A stretch of DNA of 64,000 nt from assembly GCA_002968845.1 (NCBI GenBank), contig PVBG01000006.1:1-64000 (forward strand), in the 5' to 3' direction. The translations under genes and the position numbers were made by a program. Source of the stretch: Neorhizobium tomejilense. Its GTDB lineage: Bacteria; Pseudomonadota; Alphaproteobacteria; Rhizobiales; Rhizobiaceae. Numbering within the stretch: position 1 is the first letter of the stretch; each line of letters starts with the position of its first letter. This document shows positions 30,478 to 43,244 of the stretch, in pieces. The notes beneath the pieces are model-generated. The model had not been told where the DNA came from. It ran no database searches and was given only the letters and a program-made list of their open reading frames with translations.

Positions 30478-30498
30478 TGAATGGGTAGGAGAAAAGAG

Positions 30499-31872
30499 AT
30501 GAGCAGCAGGGATCCAGTTTTCGGCTGGTGGGACGCTCCACCGTTTATCGGCGAGCTGATCCAGTCCTTGTCCGGCCGCGGCCGGGCCTTGTTCGGCCTG
30601 TCATCGCCGCCGGTGCAAAACCGCGATCTCACCGGCCTTGCCGAGATGATCCTGTCACGGCGCGGCGAAGTCTCCGGCGCCATTCTCGCCGAAGCCTTCC
30701 TCGAAGCCTACCGCCAAGCAAGTGCTGCGGACCGCGACGTGTTCATGCGCGCGCTGCTGGATCGTTTCGGCCCCGACCGCACGGCCCTCGATGCCGCGGC
30801 CACCGCCTATAGTGCCGACCCAAGCGCGGAGAATATCGCCCGGCTGCACGAGGCGGCCGAGCCGCGCCGGCAGGAGCTTTTCCGCCGCATCAATTTCGCC
30901 AAGCGCGGTACGGCGACGCTGGTCGAGATGCGCGAGCATCTGATGGACATGCTGTCCAAGGAACCGGCGCTGCAGCCGGTCGACCTCGACTTCTGCCATC
31001 TCTTCTCCTCATGGTTCAACCGGGGCTTCCTGATGTTGCGATCGATCGACTGGACCACGCCCGCCAATATCCTCGAGGCGCTGATCCGCTATGAAGCCGT
31101 GCACGATATCGACGGCTGGGACGATCTGCGCCGGCGACTGGCGCCGGCCGACCGCCGTTGCTTCGGCTTCTTCCACCCGCAATTGGAAGACGAGCCGCTG
31201 ATCTTCGTCGAGGTGGCGCTGACCGACCACCTGCCGGCTTCGGTCGATGCGCTTCTCGCCCGCGACCGCCAGCCTCTGGAAGTGCAGCAGGCGACGACGG
31301 CCGTCTTCTATTCGATCTCCAACTGCCAGCGCGGCCTTGCCGGCATTTCGCTCGGCAACTTCCTCATCAAACAGGTGGTGAACGATCTGAAGCGCGACCT
31401 TCCGCGGCTCGAAAATTTCGTGACGCTATCCCCCATCCCGGGCTTCGGGGCCTGGCTGCGCGGCGAAAGCCGCGTGATCGACAGCGAAGAGATCGCCCGA
31501 GAAAAGCAGCGGCTTATCGCCAGACTTGAAGGTGATTGGGCATCTGCCGGCGAGCACGAACTCGACCAGATCCAGCGCGCCATGCTGCCGCTCGGGGCGC
31601 ATTACCTGTTGAACGTCCGGCGCGGCAATGGCCGGCCGGTGGATCCGGTGGCGCGGTTCCATCTCGGCAACGGCGCGCAGGCCGAGCGGCTCAATTTTCT
31701 CGGCGACCGATCGCCGAAGGGCATGCGCCAGTCCTACGGCCTGATGGTCAACTATCGCTACCGGCTCGGCGAAATCGAGAAGAACCATGAGGCTTATGCC
31801 GAAAACGGCCATATCGCAGCCACGCCGGCGCTGCGCAAACTGGCCCAACCGGTTTCCCAGGAGGTGTTTTAA
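30499..31872 (+). CDS. matA: malonyl-CoA decarboxylase
   Basis: A 457-residue cytosolic enzyme converting malonyl-CoA to acetyl-CoA. ATG 30499 is chosen because TAGGAGAAAAG precedes it. The helical N-domain includes RRINFAKRGTATLVEMREHL. The GNAT-like catalytic domain contains GFFHPQLEDEPLIFVEVALT, STNCQRGLAG-type segment SNCQRGLAGISLGNFLIKQV, FVTLSPIPGFGAWL and the His-bearing GAHYLLN with DPVARFHLGNGAQAERLNF. The stop overlaps the matB start (TAATG), the usual matAB arrangement of rhizobia, where it supports growth on malonate. Confidence 0.95.
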   Translation: MSSRDPVFGWWDAPPFIGELIQSLSGRGRALFGLSSPPVQNRDLTGLAEMILSRRGEVSGAILAEAFLEAYRQASAADRDVFMRALLDRFGPDRTALDAAATAYSADPSAENIARLHEAAEPRRQELFRRINFAKRGTATLVEMREHLMDMLSKEPALQPVDLDFCHLFSSWFNRGFLMLRSIDWTTPANILEALIRYEAVHDIDGWDDLRRRLAPADRRCFGFFHPQLEDEPLIFVEVALTDHLPASVDALLARDRQPLEVQQATTAVFYSISNCQRGLAGISLGNFLIKQVVNDLKRDLPRLENFVTLSPIPGFGAWLRGESRVIDSEEIAREKQRLIARLEGDWASAGEHELDQIQRAMLPLGAHYLLNVRRGNGRPVDPVARFHLGNGAQAERLNFLGDRSPKGMRQSYGLMVNYRYRLGEIEKNHEAYAENGHIAATPALRKLAQPVSQEVF

Positions 31873-33401
31873 TGGCTGGTAATCTCTATGACGCGCTGCT
31901 CGGCGGGCTCGAACGGGAGGACCGGCTGCTCCTGACGGACGAAACGGTCGGCGCCATGAGCTACCGCGCCTTCGCCGATCAATGTTCGGGGCTTGCCGGA
32001 GCCCTTCTTGCAGCCGGCCTGCAGCCGGGCGACCGGGTCGCCGTCCAGGCGGAAAAGTCGGTCGCGGCACTGGCGCTCTATCTGGCGACGGTCCGCGCGG
32101 GCGGCATCTACCTGCCGCTCAACATCGCCTATACGCCGGCGGAAATCGAATATTTCCTCACCGACGCCGAGCCCTCGATTTTCGTCTGCGATCCCTCGAA
32201 ATTCGAGGCGCTGCAGCCGATCGCCAAGGCGGCCGGCGCGAAGATCCTGATGCTCGATCCCACGGGGCAGGGGACTTTGACGGACGCCGCCGCCATCGCC
32301 AAACCGATTGCCGAAACCTCGGCGCGGGGAGGGGCGGATATCGCCGCGATCCTCTACACGTCCGGCACGACGGGGCGTTCCAAGGGCGCCATGCTCAGCC
32401 ACGACAATCTCCTGTCGAACGCCACGTCACTGGTGGACAGCTGGCGTTTCACCGACAAGGACGTGCTGATCCACGCGCTGCCGATCTTCCACACGCACGG
32501 GCTTTTCGTCGCCACCAACGTCGTGCTCGCCTCGCGCGCCTCGATGATTTTCCAGGTGAAATTCGACCCGAACAAGATCATGGAGGCGATGCCGAAGGCG
32601 ACCGTGCTGATGGGGGTGCCGACCTTCTATACGCGCCTGCTGCAGCATTCGGGGCTCAACAGGGACAGCACCGCCCATATGCGCCTCTTCGTTTCCGGAT
32701 CGGCGCCGCTTCTTTCCGAAACCCACGCGGAATGGCAGGCGCGCACCGGTCACGCCATCCTCGAGCGCTACGGCATGACCGAGACCAACATGAACACCTC
32801 GAACCCCTATGACGGCCGGCGTGTCGCCGGCACGGTCGGGTTCCCGCTGCCGGGCGTCGAGGTGCGGATCACTGACCCCGAAACAGGCGCCTCCCTCGGC
32901 ACGGAAGAGATCGGCATGATCGAGGTGCGCGGCCCGAACGTGTTTTCGGGCTACTGGCGCATGCCGGAAAAGACCGCCGCGGAATTCCGCAAGGACGGCT
33001 TCTTCATCACCGGCGATCTCGGCAAGGTGGATATCGACGGTTATCTGCATATCGTCGGGCGCGGCAAGGACCTCATCATCACCGGTGGCTATAATGTATA
33101 CCCGAAAGAGGTGGAGATGGAGATCGACGCCATGCCGGGCGTCACCGAAAGCGCCGTCTTCGGTGTCGCACATCCGGATTTCGGCGAGGGCATCGTCGCC
33201 GCGATCGTCCTGAAATCAGGTGCCCAATTGACCGAGCAGGAGGTCATCAGGGCGCTCGACGGCCGTCTGGCTGGCTATAAACGCCCGAAAAAAGTGGCAT
33301 TCATGGCCGAACTGCCGCGCAACACGATGGGCAAGGTCCAGAAGAATATACTGCGCGATCGGTTTTCCGGAATTTTCGAGCCTGCAGTGGCTGCAAAGTA
33401 G
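31872..33401 (+). CDS. matB: malonyl-CoA synthetase (malonate-CoA ligase)
   Basis: A 509-residue AMP-forming ligase that activates malonate with CoA. Motifs are the P-loop AILYTSGTTGRSKGAMLSH, the A5 motif ERYGMTETNMN, the hinge region DGYLHIVGRGKDLIITGGYN and the C-terminal catalytic Lys in NTMGKVQKNIL. It starts within the matA stop codon. A malonate importer gene (matC) is absent at this position; the UGSC gene follows instead. Confidence 0.93.
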   Translation: MAGNLYDALLGGLEREDRLLLTDETVGAMSYRAFADQCSGLAGALLAAGLQPGDRVAVQAEKSVAALALYLATVRAGGIYLPLNIAYTPAEIEYFLTDAEPSIFVCDPSKFEALQPIAKAAGAKILMLDPTGQGTLTDAAAIAKPIAETSARGGADIAAILYTSGTTGRSKGAMLSHDNLLSNATSLVDSWRFTDKDVLIHALPIFHTHGLFVATNVVLASRASMIFQVKFDPNKIMEAMPKATVLMGVPTFYTRLLQHSGLNRDSTAHMRLFVSGSAPLLSETHAEWQARTGHAILERYGMTETNMNTSNPYDGRRVAGTVGFPLPGVEVRITDPETGASLGTEEIGMIEVRGPNVFSGYWRMPEKTAAEFRKDGFFITGDLGKVDIDGYLHIVGRGKDLIITGGYNVYPKEVEMEIDAMPGVTESAVFGVAHPDFGEGIVAAIVLKSGAQLTEQEVIRALDGRLAGYKRPKKVAFMAELPRNTMGKVQKNILRDRFSGIFEPAVAAK

Positions 33402-33462: not shown

Positions 33463-33489
33463 GCACGGATCATTTCGGGAGGAAATGGG

Positions 33490-35157
33490 ATGTTGCAACA
33501 GGGAAAGCCGCAGAGCGCTCAGCCGCTCGTCACCGTCCACAACCCGATGGGTTATCCGCCGAAGGTCAGTCGCAAGCAGCCGGCCGACCGGCCCGCCAGC
33601 CTCGACGGCAAGGTCGTCTATCTCGTCGACAGCCGCTTTGACGATTCCGTCGAGCTTCTGAAGGAGGTGGAGGCCTGGTTTGCGCGCAACATGCCGTCCG
33701 TGGACGTACGGATTCGCCAGATGGCGAACACCTATTCCAAGGATGACCCGCAGCTCTGGGAAGAGATCAAGGCGAACGGCCATGCCGCGATTATCGGTGT
33801 CGGCCATTGCAGCACCTGCGCACCGGCCGTCACCACCCATGCGATCACGCTGGAAACCAAATACGGCGTACCGACCGCGGCGATCCATACCGAAAAATTC
33901 GACAAGGTGGTCCGCTCGGTCGCCAAGATGGGCGGGCTTTCGCAGCAGCCGCTGGTCTTCGTGCCGCAGCCGGTGATGGGAAAGACGCCGGAAGAGCTGC
34001 GCGCCTATGTGGAAGGCATCGATCCGATCAGCGGCAAGTCGGTGATGAAGGAAATCATCAAGGCCCTGACCGTCGGCCTTTCGACAAGTGCCGAGGATAC
34101 ACAATTCGAACGCAGCACACCGCGCTTGATTGAGCCGGATACGGAAGACAATCTCCACGTCGCCTTTTTGCGCAACAACTGGACCGATAAGCTGCCGATC
34201 ATCCTGCCGACCGACGCTCGCGTCGCCGACATGCTGGCCGGTACAGGTCGAAAGCCGGACGAGGTCGTCGGCCATATGCAGCCGACCACCAATCGCGGCC
34301 TGTGGGAATATACCGTCGAGAAGGTCGCCGTGAACGCCGTCATGGCCGGCGCGTCGCCCGAATATTTCCCGGTCATCCTGGCGCTGGCGGCAGCACAAGT
34401 CTCCGCGCGGGGATCGACCTCTTCTTCGGCAGCGGCGATGGCCGTCGTCAACGGACCTGTTCGCAACGAGATCGGCATGAACTGCGGCGTCGGCGCACTC
34501 GGCCCCTACAGCCATGCCAATGCCACGATCGGCCGCGCCTTCGGGCTCCTGTCGCAGAACCTGCAGGGCGGCTCGGTCGTCGGCGAAACCTTCATGGGCT
34601 CGCTTGGCAACAATTATACCTACAACAACCTCACCTTCGCGGAAAACGAGGAGCGCAGTCCGTGGGAGCCGCTGCATGTGCAGAAAGGTTTCGACGCCAA
34701 GGCGAGCACCGTCAGCATCTTCCACGGCTGCCGTTCCACGACCTTCAGCCTCGGCCTGCGCAAGGAATACTGGCGCGAGCACGTGCGCGACATGCTGCTC
34801 GGCACCGATGCGATCACCGCGCCGACCCTGGTGCTCGACCCGATCTGCGCCCGGCAGTTCATCGATCGCGGCAGCTTCGTGAACAAGCAGGACCTGCTCG
34901 ACTTCATCTACGAGACGGCGCAGATGCCGGCCGGCCGTTACTGGGACCTGCAGCTCGTCCAGAATTATATCTATCCGCGCGCCACCTTCGGCGAGGAGCC
35001 GATGGCGGGCAAGCTGAAGGCCGGCAAGGACGAACTCATCCACATCTTCCGCCCGCAGGACATCAATGTCGTGGTCGTCGGCGGCGAGTCCAACGGCTAC
35101 TGGCAGATTTACGGCGCGCATTACCGCACCACCGTTTCCGTCGACGATTGGCGCTGA
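33490..35157 (+). CDS. UGSC-type redox protein of unknown function with large C-terminal domain
   Basis: A 555-residue cytosolic protein. Residues about 15-190 resemble the UGSC (seleno)protein domain: NPMGYPPKVS, GKVVYLVDSRFDDSVELL, then AAIIGVGHCSTCAPAVTTHA with Cys107-Ser-Thr-Cys110 in place of U/C-G-S-C, and LETKYGVPTAAIHTEKF. Residues about 205-555 form a second conserved region (LPIILPTDARVADMLAGTGR, EKVAVNAVMAGASPEYFPVI, GMNCGVGALGPYSHANATIG) with no function I can name. ATG 33490 follows GGGAGGAAATGG. A thioredoxin-reductase-like gene two bases downstream suggests that the Cys pair is kept reduced by it. The substrate is unknown. Confidence 0.7.
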   Translation: MLQQGKPQSAQPLVTVHNPMGYPPKVSRKQPADRPASLDGKVVYLVDSRFDDSVELLKEVEAWFARNMPSVDVRIRQMANTYSKDDPQLWEEIKANGHAAIIGVGHCSTCAPAVTTHAITLETKYGVPTAAIHTEKFDKVVRSVAKMGGLSQQPLVFVPQPVMGKTPEELRAYVEGIDPISGKSVMKEIIKALTVGLSTSAEDTQFERSTPRLIEPDTEDNLHVAFLRNNWTDKLPIILPTDARVADMLAGTGRKPDEVVGHMQPTTNRGLWEYTVEKVAVNAVMAGASPEYFPVILALAAAQVSARGSTSSSAAAMAVVNGPVRNEIGMNCGVGALGPYSHANATIGRAFGLLSQNLQGGSVVGETFMGSLGNNYTYNNLTFAENEERSPWEPLHVQKGFDAKASTVSIFHGCRSTTFSLGLRKEYWREHVRDMLLGTDAITAPTLVLDPICARQFIDRGSFVNKQDLLDFIYETAQMPAGRYWDLQLVQNYIYPRATFGEEPMAGKLKAGKDELIHIFRPQDINVVVVGGESNGYWQIYGAHYRTTVSVDDWR

Positions 35158-35159
35158 CG

Positions 35160-36137
35160 ATGAGCGCCAACGATTACGACATCGTGGTGATCGGCGCCGG
35201 CGTGGCGGGGCTCAATGCCGCCATCGCCGCTGCCCGCCACGGCGCGCGCACGATGATCGTCGACATGCTCGGCGCCGGCGGCCAGGTGATCAATGTCGAC
35301 CGCATCGACAATTTTCCGGGGCCTGCCGAGGGTATGTCCGGTTTCGAACTCGGCCCGATGCTGCAGATGCAGGCGGACGAGGCAGGCGTCGAATTTGCGC
35401 TTGATACGATCGAGACAATTTCGAAGACGGATACCGGTTTCCGCATCGCTGGCGCCGATCTCGATCTGACGGCAGGCGCAGTGGTCATCGCCGCCGGCTC
35501 GGCCAAGCGCACGCTCGGCATTCCGGGCGAAGCGGAATTCGAAGGCCGCGGCGTGTCCCATTGCGCTTCCTGCGACGGGCCGCTGATGCGCGGCAAGGAC
35601 GTGTGCATCATCGGCGGCGGAGATTCGGCGCTGGATGAGGCTTTGGCGCTCGTCCCGCATGCCGCTCGCATCACCATTATCCATCACGGTTCACGTCTCA
35701 CTGCCTCCGCTGCCCTGCAGGCGAAAGCGCGGGAAGCCTCCAATATCGAAGTCAGGCCGAACACGATCGTCACCGCGATCCGCGGTGACGGCGGCGTCAG
35801 CGCCATAACCGTCCGCGATCTGTCGACCGGCACAGAGAGCGATCTCCCCTGTCACGGCGTCTTCGTTTATGTCGGGCTCGAACCCAATACCGCATTCCTC
35901 GGCCAATCGGTCACGCTCGCGGCGGATGGCCGGATCGTCGTCGATCTCGACATGCAGACGTCGGTTCCGGGCATTTTCGCAGCCGGCGACATCCGCACGC
36001 GCTCGGTTGCGCATTTGGCAGCCTCCGCCGGCGACGGCGTGACGGCTGCGATTTCCGCCGTGCGTTATCTCGCGGAACGGGACAGCAATACCCAACAGGC
36101 GGAGCCGCGTTTCGCGGCGGCCGCATCGGCAGGATAG
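35160..36137 (+). CDS. thioredoxin-reductase-like FAD/NAD(P) oxidoreductase
   Basis: A 325-residue flavoprotein of the TrxB family. The FAD motif is IVVIGAGVAGLNAAIAAARH, then GAGGQVINVDRIDNFPGPAE. The redox-active disulfide is SHCASCDGP (Cys135-Ala-Ser-Cys138, against CATC in classical TrxB), and GKDVCIIGGGDSALDEALAL is the NAD(P)H motif. GIFAAGDIRTRSVAHLAASA closes the FAD site. ATG 35160 follows the UGSC stop by two bases, so the pair is co-translated. I infer that it feeds electrons to the UGSC Cys pair. It is unlikely to be the housekeeping TrxB. Confidence 0.85.
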   Translation: MSANDYDIVVIGAGVAGLNAAIAAARHGARTMIVDMLGAGGQVINVDRIDNFPGPAEGMSGFELGPMLQMQADEAGVEFALDTIETISKTDTGFRIAGADLDLTAGAVVIAAGSAKRTLGIPGEAEFEGRGVSHCASCDGPLMRGKDVCIIGGGDSALDEALALVPHAARITIIHHGSRLTASAALQAKAREASNIEVRPNTIVTAIRGDGGVSAITVRDLSTGTESDLPCHGVFVYVGLEPNTAFLGQSVTLAADGRIVVDLDMQTSVPGIFAAGDIRTRSVAHLAASAGDGVTAAISAVRYLAERDSNTQQAEPRFAAAASAG

Positions 36138-36141
36138 GCCC

Positions 36142-36831
36142 ATGAACGTCCAGATCAAAGGCAAGCAGGGCAAACCGAGCGTTCGCGACGCGATTGAGCA
36201 GGATATCGTCACCGGCTTCTATTCCCCCGGCGACCGGCTCGACGAGGCAGGGCTTGCGGCCCGCCATCAAGTGTCGCGTACGCCGGTGCGCGAGGCGTTG
36301 ATCCAGCTCAGCACCATGGGCCTCGTCAAGATGGTGCCCAATCGCGGCGCTTTCGTCACCCAGCTGACGATCACCGAGCTTGTCGAAATGTTCGAGGTGA
36401 TGGGTGAACTGGAGGCGATGTGCGCCCGGCTTGCCGCCCGCCGTATCCGCCCGGAACAGCTGAAACTGCTCGAAGCGGCGCAGGCAGCCTGCGCCGCGGC
36501 CCAGCAAGCCGGCAATTCCGACGATTATTATTATGCCAATGCGGAATTCCACCGGCTGATCTACGAGGCGAGCGGCAACGGATTCCTCGCCGAGAACGCC
36601 CATGCGCTGCAGCGGCGGCTGAAGCCCTATCGGCGCCTGCAGCTGCGGGTCCCCGGGCGCGTCAACAGTTCGCTGTCCGAGCACGAGGAGGTGCTTGCCG
36701 CAATCCGGGACCGAGACGACGCCCGCGCCCGTGATGCGATGCGCAACCACGTCGTCATCCAGGGTGAATATTTCAGCGACTTCCTGGCGCTGATGCGCCC
36801 GGTGGAACGCCAGCTGATCCCCGGCGAATGA
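36142..36831 (+). CDS. GntR-family transcriptional regulator with FCD domain
   Basis: A 229-residue regulator. The winged helix (residues about 12-75) contains VRDAIEQDIVTGFYSPGDRL, HQVSRTPVREALIQLSTMGL and VKMVPNRGAFV. The FCD effector domain (about 80-215) contains ELVEMFEVMGELEAMCARLA, NAEFHRLIYEASGN and SEHEEVLAAIRDRDDARARD with the usual Asp/His metal-site positions. It is four bases after the flavoprotein gene. The TTGCATACGA-like boxes before matA and the UGSC gene are plausible targets. Confidence 0.9.
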   Translation: MNVQIKGKQGKPSVRDAIEQDIVTGFYSPGDRLDEAGLAARHQVSRTPVREALIQLSTMGLVKMVPNRGAFVTQLTITELVEMFEVMGELEAMCARLAARRIRPEQLKLLEAAQAACAAAQQAGNSDDYYYANAEFHRLIYEASGNGFLAENAHALQRRLKPYRRLQLRVPGRVNSSLSEHEEVLAAIRDRDDARARDAMRNHVVIQGEYFSDFLALMRPVERQLIPGE

Positions 36832-36943: not shown

Positions 36944-37993
36944 ATGAAGCATGCCATGACCTATGTGGCCGGCCTGGTTCCGGCATTCTTGCTGGCAGCC
37001 GGTCTTGCCGGCGCGGCTGAAATGACGGCCAGCGAAAAGCAGCTCTACGACGCCGCCAAGAAGGAAGGTTCGGTGACCTGGTACGTCTCGCAGACGACCA
37101 CCGAGTTCGCGGACGGCATGTGCGGCCTGTTCAAGAAGAAATATGCCGGCGTCGAATGCAACGTCGTACGCGCCTCCGGCCAGGTCATCTTCCAGCGCCT
37201 CGTGCAGGAACTGCAGGCCAAGGCCGTCCAGGGCGACCTGATGTCGACCAATGACGATGGCCAGATGGCGCAGTTGAAGGAACAGGGCGCGCTTGCCCAG
37301 TTCGCCCCTGAAAACCTCAAGGACATGGTGCCGGAGCTTCGGTCGCTCGCCGACAAGGAAAATTACTGGATCACGTCGGGCGTCTCGCCTCTTGTCATCG
37401 CCTACAATACCAAGCTGGTGACCGAGGCGGAAGCCCCGAAGAACTGGACGGATCTTGCCGATCCGAAATGGAAGGGCCAGGTCGCCATCGGCCATCCGAG
37501 CTTCTCCGGCAGCGTCGGGCTCTGGACGGTGCTGATGAACGATCTCTACGGCTGGGACTTCTTCAAGAATATCGAAAAAAACAAGCCCCAGATCGGCCGC
37601 TCCGTGGCCGATGGTCATAACCTCGTCGCCTCGGGCGAACGCAAGCTGGCGCTGGCGCCGTTGCCGCTGATCCTGTCGGACTCGATTCTCAAAAAGGTAC
37701 CGATCGGTGTCGTCTATCCGACCGACGGCGCGCTGCTGCCGCCTTCGGCAACCGCCATCTTGAAGGATGCGCCGCATCCGAATGCCGCGAGACTGTTCGA
37801 GAACTTCCTGCTCGGGCCGGAGATCGCGGAATATTTCGCCAAGGATTACCGTTACCCGCTTCGGGCCGGCGTGCCGCTGGCAGAGGGCATGCGTCCACTC
37901 AGCAGTTACAAGACGAAGTCGATCGCGACGGCCGACGGCATCAGGAAGCTGCCCGAGGTCCAGGAAAAGTTCCGCGACACGTTCGGGATCTGA
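36944..37993 (+). CDS. ferric-type ABC transporter substrate-binding protein
   Basis: A 349-residue periplasmic protein of solute-binding family 1 (FbpA/AfuA/PotD-like cluster). The signal peptide ends near residue 24 (GLAGA). The mature start has EKQLYDAAKKEGSVTWYVSQ. A hinge region YWITSGVSPLVIAYNTKLVT and WTDLADPKWKGQVAIGHPSF follow, as in iron(III)- and thiamine-type binding proteins. The tandem Tyr iron ligands of FbpA are not obvious, so the cargo may be an organic molecule. ATG 36944 follows GGAGGAGAGACG. Begins the transporter part of the UGSC operon. Confidence 0.85.
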   Translation: MKHAMTYVAGLVPAFLLAAGLAGAAEMTASEKQLYDAAKKEGSVTWYVSQTTTEFADGMCGLFKKKYAGVECNVVRASGQVIFQRLVQELQAKAVQGDLMSTNDDGQMAQLKEQGALAQFAPENLKDMVPELRSLADKENYWITSGVSPLVIAYNTKLVTEAEAPKNWTDLADPKWKGQVAIGHPSFSGSVGLWTVLMNDLYGWDFFKNIEKNKPQIGRSVADGHNLVASGERKLALAPLPLILSDSILKKVPIGVVYPTDGALLPPSATAILKDAPHPNAARLFENFLLGPEIAEYFAKDYRYPLRAGVPLAEGMRPLSSYKTKSIATADGIRKLPEVQEKFRDTFGI

Positions 37994-38090
37994 ACCGTAA
38001 CCGGGAGGCCGGCATCTGCTGGCCTCCGCCCATCACGCCCGCTGGCGTGACCTGTTTCCGACGCCTCCAGTGACAAAGCGAGCGCCGATC

Positions 38091-39838
38091 ATGACGAGTG
38101 TTTCCCATCCCGCGGCCTCCACCTGGTCGCAAGACCGGCCGGTGAAGGTACGCGTGCCCTGGCACCAGCGGCTGCAGCCGGCCAATCTGCTCTGGCTATT
38201 CCTGGCCGGCATTCTGGTCGTGCTGATCGTGGCGCCGATGTGGACGCTCGTCGTCTCCAGCTTCACTGACGCCAAGACCGGCGGCTGGACGCTTCACAAC
38301 TATGTCGAGGCCTATGGCAAGGAACGCCACATCACGGCGCTCACCAATACGCTGAAGATGGGTGCCGTCGTCGTCGTGCTGAAACTGGCTTTCGGCGTGC
38401 CGCTCGCCTGGGCCTGCACCCGCACCGACATGCCGGGCCGCAACTTCGTGCGCTACAGCGTGTTCGGCGCCTTCATCATGCCGCCCTATCTCGCCGGCGT
38501 CGGCTGGATCCTGCTCGCCGGCCCGAATACCGGCTGGATCAACCGTGTCTGGCACAGCCTTTCCGGCTCGACCGAACCGCTGGTCAACATTTTCTCCTTC
38601 GGCGGACTGGTGCTGGTCACCGCGATCGGCGGCTTTTTCCTCGTCTTCGTGCTGGTGAGCTCGGCCTTCGAGATGATCAATTCCGAGATGGAGGATGCCG
38701 CCAACATCCTCGGCGCCGGGCCGTTCAAGACGGCGATGAAGGTGACGTTCCCTCTCGTCATGCCGGCGATCATCGGCGCAGCACTCCTCTCTTTCCTCGG
38801 CGCAATCGCGCTCTACGGGGTGCCGGCGCTGATCTCGATCCCGGCGCGGTATCCTGTCGTGGTGATCCAGCTCACCGAGTTCTTCTCGTTCCCGCTGCGG
38901 ATCCAGGTGGCGGCCGCCTATTCGATCCCGCTGCTGCTGATCACCGCCGCGATGCTCGGGCTGCAGAAGCTGATCCTGCGCCGCAAGGGTTATGTGTCGG
39001 TCAGCGGCAAGGGCGGCGAGCGGCGTATCGTCAAGCTCGGCAGGTGGCGCTGGGTGTTGTTTGCCTATTGCTTCTGCGTCGTGGCGCTGTCGGTGCTGAT
39101 GCCGATGTTCGTGCTGCTGCTCGCTGCCTTCTCGGACTCCTGGACCACGGGCTTCTCGTTCAGCAACCTGACGCTTTCAAATTTCCACTATGTGCTCTTT
39201 GAACATTCGAGTTCACAAAAGGCTTTGGTCGGCAGCATCGGTCTCGGCATCGTGGCGGCGACGGTCGCGATCACGCTGGCGCTGTTCATCGCCTATATCG
39301 TCCAGCGCAGGCTGATCCCTTTCTCGGGCCTGCTCGCGTTCCTGGCGGTCTCGCCCTATGTCGTGCCCGGCATCGTGCTCGCCATCGGCTTTTATGCGGC
39401 CTACGCCCTGCCGCCGATCGCGCTTTATGGCACCTACACGATCATGGCGCTTGCCTTCATCACCCGTTTCCTGCCGATCGCCTTCACCACCAGCTCGGCC
39501 GGCGTGCGCAGCATTCATCCGGAAATGGAGGAAGCGGTGCGCATTCTCGGCGGCGGGCGGGTGACGGCGCTGCGGCATGTGGTCGGACCGCTCCTGAAGC
39601 GCACGCTGGCCGGCGGATGGTTGCTGATCTTCGTGCCGGCCGCACAGGAACTCTCGACCGCCATCTTCCTGGTCGGTCCCACCACGCGCGTCGTATCCGT
39701 CGTGCTGCTCGATCTCAGCGAGGAGGGCGAGCTCGAAAAGCTCGCGGCGCTGGGCTCTTTGTTGTTGATCATCATTGTCGCAGTCGTCGCCCTCGGGATG
39801 AAATATCTCGGCCGCGACTTCATGTTGAGGAGAAGCTA

Positions 39839-39839
<1 letters not shown>
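38091..39839 (+). CDS. ferric-type ABC transporter permease, two fused domains
   Basis: A protein of about 582 residues with some twelve membrane helices and two BPD_transp domains in tandem, as in FbpB/SfuB. The first EAA loop is EMEDAANILGAGPFKTAMKV, the second EMEEAVRILGGGRVTALRHV. Between them is a charged cytoplasmic linker (QKLILRRKGYVSVSGKGGER). Start ATG 38091 (MTSVSHPAASTW) or GTG 38070 is undecided; neither has a strong ribosome site. The stop overlaps the ATPase start by one base. Confidence 0.88.
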
Positions 39840-40909
<1,070 letters not shown>

Positions 40910-40924: not shown

Positions 40925-41779
40925 CTATTTCACCTTGAAACCCATCCGTCGCACCACATCGAGCAGCACGTGCCGGCCTTTCAGGGCCGGTGCGTCGGCG
41001 ATGCGGCTGGCGACGACGCTGGTCCAGCCGCGCACCGCCATGCCCTGGTCGGTCTGAAAGGACCGCATCGTGTCATCGTATGCGGCGAGATCCGCTTCCG
41101 CCGGTGCTGCCTGATATTGCTCGCGATGAAGCACGACCGATTGCGGCAGGCGCGGCTTGACCTCAGTCTCGACCGCCGGGTCCGGATATCCGACCGTCAT
41201 CCCGAACACCGCCAGGGCCTCCGACGGCAGGCCGAGCAGTTCGCCCAGTTCGGCGGGATGGTTGCGAATACCACCGATATAGCAGGTGCCGAGACCGAGC
41301 GATTCGAGCGCCACCAGCGCATTCTGGGCGGCAAGCGTCGCGTCGATCGTCGCCAGCAGGAAGCTTTCGAGATAGTCGAGGCCTTCGCCGGTCTTGCCCT
41401 GTTTTGCGGTGATTTTCCTCAACCGCGAGAGATCGGCGATCCACACGAGAAAGAGCGGCGCGGAGATGATCTGCGGATTGGGCGAGGCGAGGCCGGCAAG
41501 CTTTTTCCGCTGCTCGGGGTCCTCAACCGCGACGACGCTCCAGGCCTGCAGGCTGGAGGAGGTTGGCGCCGATTGGGCCGCCGCGACGATCAGCTGCAGC
41601 ACGCTTTCAGGCACCGGTTTCGGCAGATAGGAGCGAACGGAGCGGTGCGAAAGGATCGCCTCGAGCGCCGTGTTCCACTCCGCCGCCGCGGCCGGCTGAT
41701 CCGATCCATAACGCTGGCGAAGAAGATCGGCCGGGATCGAGGAAGTTTCAGGGGCGGAGGCGAAGCGGGAAACGGACAT
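40925..41779 (-). CDS. NADPH-dependent FMN nitroreductase family protein
   Basis: A 284-residue flavoenzyme of the NfsA/FRP-type nitroreductase family. ILSHRSVRSYLPKPVPESVL holds the FMN-phosphate-binding Arg-Ser-x-Arg. QSAPTSSSLQAWSVVAVEDP, QNALVALESLGLGTCYIGGI and the Gly in LAVFGMTVGYPDP complete the FMN site. A typical reaction is two-electron reduction of nitro, quinone or flavin substrates. It converges on the ATPase gene and diverges from the M24 peptidase gene. A TTGTATAC box lies in the divergent promoter. Confidence 0.9.
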   Translation of the reverse strand: MSVSRFASAPETSSIPADLLRQRYGSDQPAAAAEWNTALEAILSHRSVRSYLPKPVPESVLQLIVAAAQSAPTSSSLQAWSVVAVEDPEQRKKLAGLASPNPQIISAPLFLVWIADLSRLRKITAKQGKTGEGLDYLESFLLATIDATLAAQNALVALESLGLGTCYIGGIRNHPAELGELLGLPSEALAVFGMTVGYPDPAVETEVKPRLPQSVVLHREQYQAAPAEADLAAYDDTMRSFQTDQGMAVRGWTSVVASRIADAPALKGRHVLLDVVRRMGFKVK

Positions 41780-41837: not shown

Positions 41838-42011
41838 GGGCGGAGAATATCTCAGTCGCTTTCAGCCGGAAGGGTGGCGGAGGGTGATTTTGGGCACGGG
41901 CGGGGAATGCTCTTCGCCGCCATGGTGGCATTCAGGAATTTTGTTCCAACCGCTGGCGATTTGGCCGCTGGCCGGCTAAGGCCTTGGGAAAAGACGGATC
42001 TGGAGAATGCG

Positions 42012-43244
42012 ATGAGTGATATCGACCGCCGCCACGCAGAGCGCCTGATGGAGCAAGCCGGGCTCGACGCCCTGGTAATCTTCCAGCCCGAAGCCTTTCG
42101 GTATGCGGTGGGGGCGCCGGCCGGTGTCGCGGCCATGTGGGGCAGGGCGGGTGCCGCAATCGCGCTTGTGCCGGCTGATGCCGCGACCGGTCTGGCCGCG
42201 ATCGCCAGCGACCACGCCGCCGGCTCGATCCGCAAGGCTGTGGCAGAGGTGGACCTGCGCACCCATCGCGTCTGGATCGACATGCTCGATCTGACGGGAG
42301 CCGAGAGCGTCGAGCAGGTCAACGCCGCCTATCGCCGGCTCGGGTCTTTCGGACCTCGGCCGGAAACGTTCGATCGGTCCGCCTGTTTCGGCCTGCTCGG
42401 CGATCTGCTGAACGAGCGTGGCCTTGATCGGGCACGGATCGGCGCAGACCTGGAATTCATACCGGCGGCCGATTTCGAGGCGCTGAAACTGGCTTTGCCG
42501 ACGGTGACCTGGACCGATGGCTCGGACGTGCTGCGCCGCCTGCGGGCCGTCAAGACGCTGCGCGAGATCGAGCGGCTGCGTCGTGCCGCCAAGGCTGCGG
42601 AGGCCGGACTCGTCCGCATGGCGGCGGCGGTGAAACCCGGCGCGCGGCTCACCGACCTCTCTTGCGCCTGGAAGGCGGGCGCCCAGGCAGCCGCGGCGGA
42701 AGGCGGCTTCGGGCTGAGCGGCCACTGGGATTTCATCTCGGTCGGCGCCGATCTTTCGGACATGTCAGCGGTCGTGACGCCGGGCGCGCTTATCAAGGCC
42801 GATGTCGGAACGCTGGTCGACGGCTATTCCTCGGACGGCGCACGCACCTTCACCCATGGCCTTGCATCGCCATTGTCGCGCGAAATCTTCAAGGCGCTGG
42901 AAAACGCTTTCGCAGCCGGGCTCGGTGAACTTCGTCCGGGCAATACGTTCGGCGCTGTGCATGCGGCCATGCTCGCCTCGATGCGCAACGACGGTTTCGC
43001 GGAATATGATCGCGGCCATTTCGGCCATTCGGTCGGCGGCAGCGTCGGCATCGAGGAATGGCCGTTCTTCTCCGCCGGCAATCCGGAGATCATCCAGCCA
43101 AACATGGTGGTGGCGCTGGAGACGCCGTTCTACGGGCAGGGTATCGCCGCGCTGATGATCGAGGATCAGTTCCTGATCACCGAAACGGGGGCCGAATGCA
43201 TGAACAGGCTGCCCCGGACGTTGCGCGATCTTTCGGCAGAATAG
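42012..43244 (+). CDS. M24 family metallopeptidase (Xaa-Pro peptidase-like)
   Basis: A 410-residue cytosolic pita-bread enzyme. The N-terminal creatinase/prolidase-like domain (about 1-170) begins RRHAERLMEQAGLDALVIFQ. The catalytic domain carries the five dimetal ligands: two Asp in KADVGTLVDGYSSDGARTFT, His in RGHFGHSVGGSVG, Glu in VALETPFYGQG and Glu in LMIEDQFLITETG. The start ATG 42012 follows TCTGGAGAATGCG. A hairpin terminator follows. Substrate may be a Xaa-Pro dipeptide or a creatine-like amidino compound. Confidence 0.9.
   Translation: MSDIDRRHAERLMEQAGLDALVIFQPEAFRYAVGAPAGVAAMWGRAGAAIALVPADAATGLAAIASDHAAGSIRKAVAEVDLRTHRVWIDMLDLTGAESVEQVNAAYRRLGSFGPRPETFDRSACFGLLGDLLNERGLDRARIGADLEFIPAADFEALKLALPTVTWTDGSDVLRRLRAVKTLREIERLRRAAKAAEAGLVRMAAAVKPGARLTDLSCAWKAGAQAAAAEGGFGLSGHWDFISVGADLSDMSAVVTPGALIKADVGTLVDGYSSDGARTFTHGLASPLSREIFKALENAFAAGLGELRPGNTFGAVHAAMLASMRNDGFAEYDRGHFGHSVGGSVGIEEWPFFSAGNPEIIQPNMVVALETPFYGQGIAALMIEDQFLITETGAECMNRLPRTLRDLSAE

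Follow-up and report, generated by a model that had tools for sequence, protein, structure and literature searches.

We analyzed a 64,000-nucleotide window of the root-nodule bacterium Neorhizobium tomejilense (GenBank assembly GCA_002968845.1, contig PVBG01000006.1, positions 1 to 64,000 of the forward strand), which carries a gene for a 555-residue protein that joins a UGSC-family domain to a second conserved domain, termed UNK1 here, and a gene for a flavoprotein resembling thioredoxin reductase (TrxB). On our leading reading, which we hold with a little less than even confidence, the fusion protein would be a selenium-free, two-part enzyme that works like the core of glycine or D-proline reductase and whose product would be malonate or a precursor of malonate. 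Reductive cleavage of small organic acids by the UGSC-UNK1 pair is suggested by analogy, because the UGSC domain is distantly related to GrdB of glycine reductase. Comparison of sequences established the domain homologies, the cysteine/selenocysteine (Sec) site, the two-part module, the fusion, and the operon on which this reading builds. An original prediction, made from the letters of the window, had already described a 555-residue UGSC-type protein with Cys107-Ser-Thr-Cys110 and, two bases after its stop codon, a TrxB-like flavoprotein with a CASC motif, and both descriptions were confirmed. The features of the gene pair are as follows.

33490..35157, + strand: UGSC-UNK1 fusion gene, 555 amino acids, ATG start; codons 33490-35154, stop codon TGA 35155-35157
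33535..34020, + strand: UGSC domain, residues 16-177; PF24696 E value 7.8e-26, 91.7 bits against a cut-off of 25
33808..33819, + strand: C107-S-T-C110 motif; Cys107 codon 33808-33810, Cys110 codon 33817-33819
34144..35151, + strand: UNK1 domain, matches to stand-alone proteins
35158-35159: two-base spacer between the fusion gene and the flavoprotein gene
35160..36137, + strand: TrxB-like flavoprotein, 325 amino acids; TIGR01292, 298.2 bits
35562..35573, + strand: CASC redox motif of the flavoprotein, residues 135-138, followed by DGPLMRG; direct reading

The fusion protein passes the gathering score of PF24696 and matches the NCBIfam equivalog NF041046 below its cut-off (63.4 versus 125 bits); by these profile scores, it is a divergent UGSC member and not an NF041046 equivalog. 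Compared with the U/C-G-S-C motif of the family, C-S-T-C retains both chalcogen positions and differs in the two middle residues, and in the alignments Cys107 occupies the selenocysteine position of relatives. The protein thus shares with the UGSC family (PF24696/NF041046) the domain itself, a UxxC-type site, and fusion to a conserved domain of obscure role, but differs in having Cys-Ser-Thr-Cys instead of U-G-S-C, a sub-cut-off NF041046 score, and a location beside a TrxB-like gene within a mat operon. The UGSC family, its Sec, its fusion with an unknown domain, and its coding by UAG are already known. In particular, Zhang and Gladyshev reported in 2008 that UGSC is fused to a conserved unknown domain, "Unknown_1" (PMC2398784), which we infer to be UNK1; the fusion itself is accordingly not new. 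UGSC accounts for 8.2% of the selenoprotein genes in marine metagenomes and is among the commonest selenoproteins (PMC9402790), and no function for UGSC is stated in those parts of the literature that were searched.

To survey the family, we scanned for UNK1 with an 11-sequence alignment and one genome per species; at least 578 relatives were present among 590 stretches, and the best 80 loci were examined. The UNK1 borders derive from this 11-row profile, and the window is itself a row of both the UNK1 and the UGSC profiles; its own matches to these profiles therefore carry no weight. Pairs were counted at profile scores above 30 for UGSC and above 150 for UNK1. The profile search with both domains and the inspection of neighborhoods, which had been proposed along with the original prediction, found UGSC adjoining UNK1 in 72 of the 80 loci, on the same strand and at most 953 bases apart. 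UGSC and UNK1 together are, by this association, a two-part module.

The codon at the position of Cys107 was read by pattern, and by eye in the six rows where the pattern failed. Across 83 UGSC matches, it was TGA in 74 (L071, L101, and L106 have TGA at the U position), TAG in one gene represented by two rows, Cys in 6, and neither in 1. The 74 TGA matches include two with Ser at the second position of the motif and one partial match (L067); the two TAG rows are two pieces of locus L100 around a single TAG, and the first copy in L072 is the one match of the 83 with neither a Sec codon nor Cys. Folding of the 45 bases behind this codon is more stable than that of shuffled sequences (z below -1) in 59/76 TGA cases and 5/18 Cys cases, as determined for UGSC matches that score at least 80 and have a recognizable motif, each compared with 60 mononucleotide shuffles; because these sequences are related to one another, no p-value is claimed. 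By these measures, the TGA at the U position of UGSC genes behaves as a selenocysteine codon, and the census supports the active-site role that had been predicted for the Cys pair. SelA was matched at 333 to 538 bits in 6/7 TGA/TAG-type genomes tested (G339, G341, G342, G345, G346, and G347), the seventh, G344, giving 51 bits. Among seven Cys-type genomes, five Neorhizobium gave 50 to 55 bits and the haloarchaeon G348 gave 32 bits, with no match in Candidimonas G340. At 50 to 55 bits, the true enzyme seems to be missing from Neorhizobium, in line with the Cys at the motif. A plasmid of Acidovorax sp. T1 (typed IncP, conjugative) also carries a frame for a UGSC-UNK1 fusion (L024:8640-10244), in which the Sec position is TGA; the frame sits downstream of IS1071- and IS91-type transposase genes.

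The relation to GrdB rests on profile comparisons. The UGSC alignment A7 gave an hhalign value of 95.9% over 87 columns against three GrdB proteins; adding four short PF07355 proteins to these raised it to 96.9%, over 73 columns, and the controls gave 0.1% (UGSC versus UNK1), 5.2% (UGSC versus GrdE), 0.3% (UNK1 versus GrdE), and 0.9% (UNK1 versus GrdB). A 10-sequence UGSC profile scored five full-length GrdB-type proteins at 28.2, 24.8, 10.2, 10.2, and 9.8 bits and ten short PF07355 proteins from 16.1 bits down to nothing; the better matches cover the Sec motif and then the G-I-P and P-H-P-L-G blocks. By these comparisons, the second half of the UGSC domain is a homologue of the C-terminal part of GrdB, which carries Sec. 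PF07355 itself has no match in the window fusion protein at E values up to 1 and is absent from the families listed for 33 UGSC members (E up to 10), the Pfam model omitting the shared region. In all 15 loci examined (L115 to L129), the PF07355 match ends 0 to 3 codons before an in-frame TGA. The model stops at the Sec codon, and a test with PF07355 is therefore blind to the shared region. PF07355 was matched in 29/118 genomes of the Smithella phylum and not in the window's own genome, but 14 control genomes were equally silent.

GrdB and the D-proline reductase subunit PrdB (PF07355) thus have a Sec/Cys-x-x-Cys region that is homologous to UGSC by profile. Unlike them, UGSC shares only the region around and after the motif, and it has a different large partner domain and no GrdE/PrdA-like pyruvoyl partner; no Pfam match to the GrdE/PrdA family was found among ten operon proteins scanned. 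UNK1 as a relative of GrdE was ruled out by the hhalign control, and substrate activation must therefore differ from that of glycine reductase. Thioredoxin reductase is the electron source upstream in the glycine reductase system. According to a 2026 review, the system draws its electrons from thioredoxin (PMC13188914).

The second conserved domain that had been predicted is borne out: residues ~217-555 have no match among Pfam models, yet stand-alone proteins in other genomes match them with 41 to 44% identity over ~200 residues, the four best having E values from 8.7e-38 to 1.4e-29. In alignment A5, residues D233, P236, P240, G322, G348, R349, and E385 are invariant across all 54 rows, and the window has Ala288 where at least 90% of the rows carry Cys. 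For UNK1, a model built on a main-family member (Natrialba L035, 96 rows) reached a pLDDT of 94.8 and a pTM of 0.93, and the model of the window fusion protein reached 80.1 and 0.81; in the alignment behind the latter, the UGSC rows end in ~25 residues that are wrongly placed over UNK1. Neither the fusion protein nor alignments A5 and A7 gave anything credible against the sequences of solved structures. No solved relative of UNK1 was found by structure, Foldseek giving nothing below E 0.001 and VIA a Z score of 4.0 at best, and resemblances to fumarase, cyclic-amide hydrolase, or PrpD were too weak to be adopted. With VIA, the UGSC half matched chain H of the MCR activation complex 8s7v best (Z 11.1, 131 residues, 3.0 A); this chain heads a long series of Rossmann-like rows, and no function was read from it.

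The flavoprotein has both the FAD motif GAGVAG and the redox CASC, and it shares these motifs and its overall length with TrxB (TIGR01292), but it misses the equivalog cut-off (298.2 versus 343.45 bits), has CDGPL instead of CDGFF, and falls outside the canonical group in trees. It is 34% identical to the TrxB of its own genome and has HHGSRLT where that housekeeping enzyme has HRRDSFR (HRRxxxR). HRRxxxR is the NADPH 2'-phosphate motif, and its loss suggests NADH or another donor rather than NADPH. The UGSC-linked TrxB proteins comprise a canonical kind with CDGFF and HRRxxxR or nearly so (L014, at ~2.7 kb from UGSC, L030, L032, L033, and L097) and a second kind without HRRxxxR and with CDGPL or a related form (CDGPF in L048, CDAGF in L025). 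Of eight aligned members of the second kind, five also lack the GGGxxA nucleotide motif, whereas the window flavoprotein, of the same kind, keeps GGGDSA. In a 17-row tree, the window flavoprotein groups at 98/94 with eight second-kind proteins from haloarchaea, Alpha- and Betaproteobacteria, Chloroflexi, and Actinobacteria. In a second tree, with three rows added and two own-genome rows removed, a canonical group of seven, including the own housekeeping and Deinococcus TrxB, splits off at 100/98, and the rest is poorly resolved. L194, L195, and L222 were left out of this second tree, and both trees omit the frames of L170 to L175.

A direct connection between the two kinds of protein is found in Blastococcus, where a single frame (L100:7529-8989) encodes a TrxB-like domain, a glycine-rich linker, and UGSC, with TAG exactly at the Sec position. 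TrxB-UGSC frames of fusion length, with one TAG each, occur in 8/57 Geodermatophilaceae genomes, including that of L100. Decoding of UAG as Sec in Geodermatophilaceae, UGSC proteins included, has been described, and the part of that report consulted does not mention the TrxB fusion (PMC5330540). The fusion and the separation of the window flavoprotein from housekeeping TrxB support redox coupling between UGSC and the flavoprotein. Among the nearest non-Neorhizobium matches to the flavoprotein are two haloarchaeal plasmid proteins (41% and 38%, both CDGPLY), located ~17 and 23 kb away from three consecutive unnamed genes that match UNK1. Ordinary TrxB is also present in this list of plasmid matches, of which 40 of 500 records were covered, and no gene named UGSC was found in the two other neighborhoods examined (Deinococcus and Agrobacterium).

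The gene pair lies directly 3' of mat genes on the same strand, and the ABC genes expected downstream of it are present at 36944-40909. The neighboring features are as follows.

30496..31872, + strand: malonyl-CoA decarboxylase (MCD), MatA-like; PF05292 E 6e-102, PF17408 E 1e-30
31872..33401, + strand: malonyl-CoA synthetase (MatB); NF005702, 823 bits, cut-off 558
33477..33485, + strand: GGGAGGAAA, a ribosome-binding-like sequence ahead of the UGSC/UNK1 start codon; direct reading
36142..36831, + strand: GntR/FCD regulator; PF00392, PF07729
36944..37993, + strand: ABC solute-binding protein; PF13343, resembling PhnS2 (TIGR03261, 85 bits against a cut-off of 393)
38094..39839, + strand: ABC permease with two permease stretches; PF00528 twice
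39848..40909, + strand: ABC ATPase; PF00005 E 3e-36, PF08402

Four other Neorhizobium genomes keep the gene order MCD, MatB, UGSC/UNK1, TrxB-like protein, GntR regulator, binding protein, permease, ATPase, and their fusion proteins are 95 to 97% identical to that of the window. The gene is single copy in its own genome. In total, 5/40 relatives searched carry the fusion gene, own genome included, and all five carriers have the mat genes with it. In an even sample of the phylum, the fusion protein was matched in 4/299 genomes, again including its own, and the top five plasmid records in a separate search were all Neorhizobium, four of them at ~97% identity. Elsewhere, 18 further MatB matches were found in 17/40 relatives (53 to 65% identical, E up to 1e-120), with no UGSC beside them within the up to 1.5 kb examined per side. 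Given the conserved order in five Neorhizobium genomes and the other MatB loci without UGSC, the UGSC/UNK1-TrxB-mat gene set looks like one accessory cassette. A nitroreductase-family gene (40925-41779, - strand) and an M24/creatinase-type peptidase gene (41862-43244, + strand) lie 3' of the ABC genes; they also trail the cassette in three of the four other carriers and are absent from the 3 kb behind the fourth (L023). One Neorhizobium genome (G321) has two extra UNK1-UGSC pairs with Cys on a different contig (L018 and L019), whose neighbors, labeled by eye, resemble acyl-CoA and carboxylate-receptor genes.

A mechanism can be proposed from the chemistry of GrdB, in part as reviewed in PMC13188914. 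UNK1 would hold a small organic acid, the precursor that the ABC system would import. Cys107 (Sec in most relatives) would attack the carbon bearing the leaving group and form a thioether or mixed intermediate, which Cys110 would resolve, freeing the reduced acid and leaving a Cys107-Cys110 disulfide. The flavoprotein would re-reduce this disulfide through its CASC pair and FAD. The freed acid would either be malonate itself or give rise to it; MatB would then activate malonate to malonyl-CoA, from which the decarboxylase would form acetyl-CoA. Since MatB and malonyl-CoA decarboxylase are in the operon, malonate is the likeliest product. The direction of electron flow, the reductive cleavage, and malonate as product are the steps that we infer. 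A substituted malonate as substrate is speculation, chemically reasonable because malonate is a good carbanion leaving group.

Several observations weigh against this scheme. The stretch common to UGSC and GrdB is ~75 to 90 residues long, just before and after the motif, three of the five GrdB-type proteins score ~10 bits with the UGSC profile, and UNK1 has no relation to the pyruvoyl subunit GrdE. The window UNK1 is distant, at no more than 38% identity over the domain in a comparison without the other Neorhizobium copies (locally up to 44%), and the UNK1 tree gives it no resolved place; fused Sec forms with PAV after the motif (L049, L067, and L111) cluster together at 100/99, with the window outside. 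UNK1 occurs without UGSC in 8/80 loci (L038; L047, which is cut at a contig end; L069, L077, L086, L093, L105, and L114), five of them from Poribacteria. TrxB-like genes are present in 5/80 genome loci (L048, at ~5 kb, L083, L097, L099, and L100) and 5/11 annotated plasmid loci (L025, L030, L032, L033, and L034), and the five canonical UGSC-linked TrxB proteins group with housekeeping TrxB, so that the window class is not the sole one used. The dedicated reductase of the original prediction gains from the Geodermatophilaceae fusion and from the distinctness of the flavoprotein, but TrxB adjacency is a minority arrangement. Other UGSC loci have no MCD match, and their MatB-like ligases are 26 to 32% identical, so the malonate link is particular to the Neorhizobium cassette. 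The Poribacteria loci (L069, L077, L086, L105, and L114, of which L069, L086, and L105 have common neighbors) point to a role of UNK1 without a Sec partner.

Homologues without both Cys and without Sec, which had been named as contrary evidence to the original prediction, exist in part of the family: a Sporomusa fusion (L028:9908-11632), a Vibrio fusion (L029:9899-11584), and the first copy in L072. In the first two, M-G-T-S replaces U-G-S-C, aconitase X adjoins, and no TrxB match was found in the surrounding stretches. Redox chemistry is therefore not universal in the family, and the UGSC-UNK1 scaffold can evidently serve without the chalcogen pair. Of the predicted reductive chemistry, the proposal for the window stands as an analogy with GrdB and does not extend to every member. 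These homologues, which retain both domains beside aconitase-X genes, fit covalent but non-reductive catalysis, in which Cys or Sec would be the nucleophile for elimination, hydration, or isomerization of an organic acid and the flavoprotein would merely keep it reduced. Locus L041, a UGSC locus with TGA, also has a frame of the same aconitase-X cluster nearby, and the structural resemblance of UNK1, weak and far below significance, is to class I fumarases (Foldseek E 0.01; VIA Z 4.0). However, the UxxC layout and the TrxB fusion suit a redox cycle better than maintenance of a nucleophile, and Sec is costly for a plain nucleophile; we regard this alternative as unlikely, though less so than the two that follow.

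A thioredoxin-like protective oxidoreductase that reduces peroxides or disulfides through its thiol or selenol is distinctly improbable. UGSC is grouped with thioredoxin-fold selenoproteins in PMC2398784 and PMC13188914, and TrxB and TrxA genes adjoin the UGSC pair in L030. No chain described as thioredoxin-like was among the 50 rows listed from each structure comparison of the model, although the fold may nonetheless be thioredoxin-like. Against a protective role, the profile relative of UGSC is GrdB, Rossmann-like chains are what its half of the model resembles, and the near-constant large partner and huge paralogue number are ill-suited to a general antioxidant. The mat genes of the window and the catabolic character of several annotated plasmid contexts (CoA transferases, acyl-CoA enzymes, and carboxylate receptors) speak against it as well. 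Neighbor labels (BUG, CaiB, PrpD, etc.) were assigned at a glance on crude gene calls that include antisense frames. Carboxylate-receptor-like genes, found in 31/101 clustered stretches, were set aside as evidence, since Betaproteobacteria are rich in genes of this type. Least probable is detoxification, in which the pair would use the same chemistry as the favored explanation to strip a heteroatom group from an inhibitory acid (e.g., a substituted malonate) and the mat genes would merely salvage the product: the cassette is accessory, as its presence in 5/40 relatives shows, but the importer and regulator genes behind the pair suggest a compound that is sought rather than avoided.

The number of UGSC genes varies widely among genomes, with 1, 1, 1, 4, 132 (later 150), 1, 7, 58, 34, 4, 1, 6, and 2 PF24696 matches in 13 genomes. 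The largest set is in a 5.0-Mb Chloroflexi metagenome-assembled genome (G342, NC_groundwater_644, L049), with at least 150 UGSC genes (150 scored of 208 candidates). TGA is present in 146/150 matches (three with two TGA) and absent from 4, and 95/150 read-through frames, their lengths transferred by hand, reach at least 500 amino acids, enough for a fusion. In the 30 best-scoring loci, TGA is at the U position of the first UGSC motif in 30/30 and UNK1 is in the stretch in 27/30; their UGSC sequences are pairwise 38% identical in the median and 73% at most, with 0/435 pairs above 90%, which argues against strain duplicates. Two Betaproteobacteria metagenome-assembled genomes, G345 and G346, have 58 and 34 UGSC genes. 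According to the 2026 review PMC13188914, which cautions about co-assembly, a bacterial genome has at most 63 selenoprotein genes. Provided that the Chloroflexi count is right, a single organism would be expected to produce over double that number of selenoproteins.

The relation to GrdB, the near-constant UGSC-UNK1 pairing, the TrxB fusion, the expansion, and the mat cassette were not found in the portions of the open-licence literature that were searched. Still more tentatively than for the window protein, we propose that UGSC-UNK1 may be a new superfamily of glycine-reductase-like selenoenzymes, in which a Sec domain of the GrdB lineage is combined with a substrate-binding protein and no pyruvoyl subunit, partly with a TrxB-like reductase class of its own and with more than 100 copies in one genome, and which would carry out the reductive opening of small carboxylic acids in many microbes. 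With the link to GrdB, the function of UGSC becomes testable: small acids would be cleaved reductively, with electrons from a TrxB-type source. The window holds a selenium-free, single-chain form with its likely reductase adjoining, in a culturable genus, and with neighboring mat genes that hint at malonate as the product; it is therefore a convenient form in which to assay the activity.

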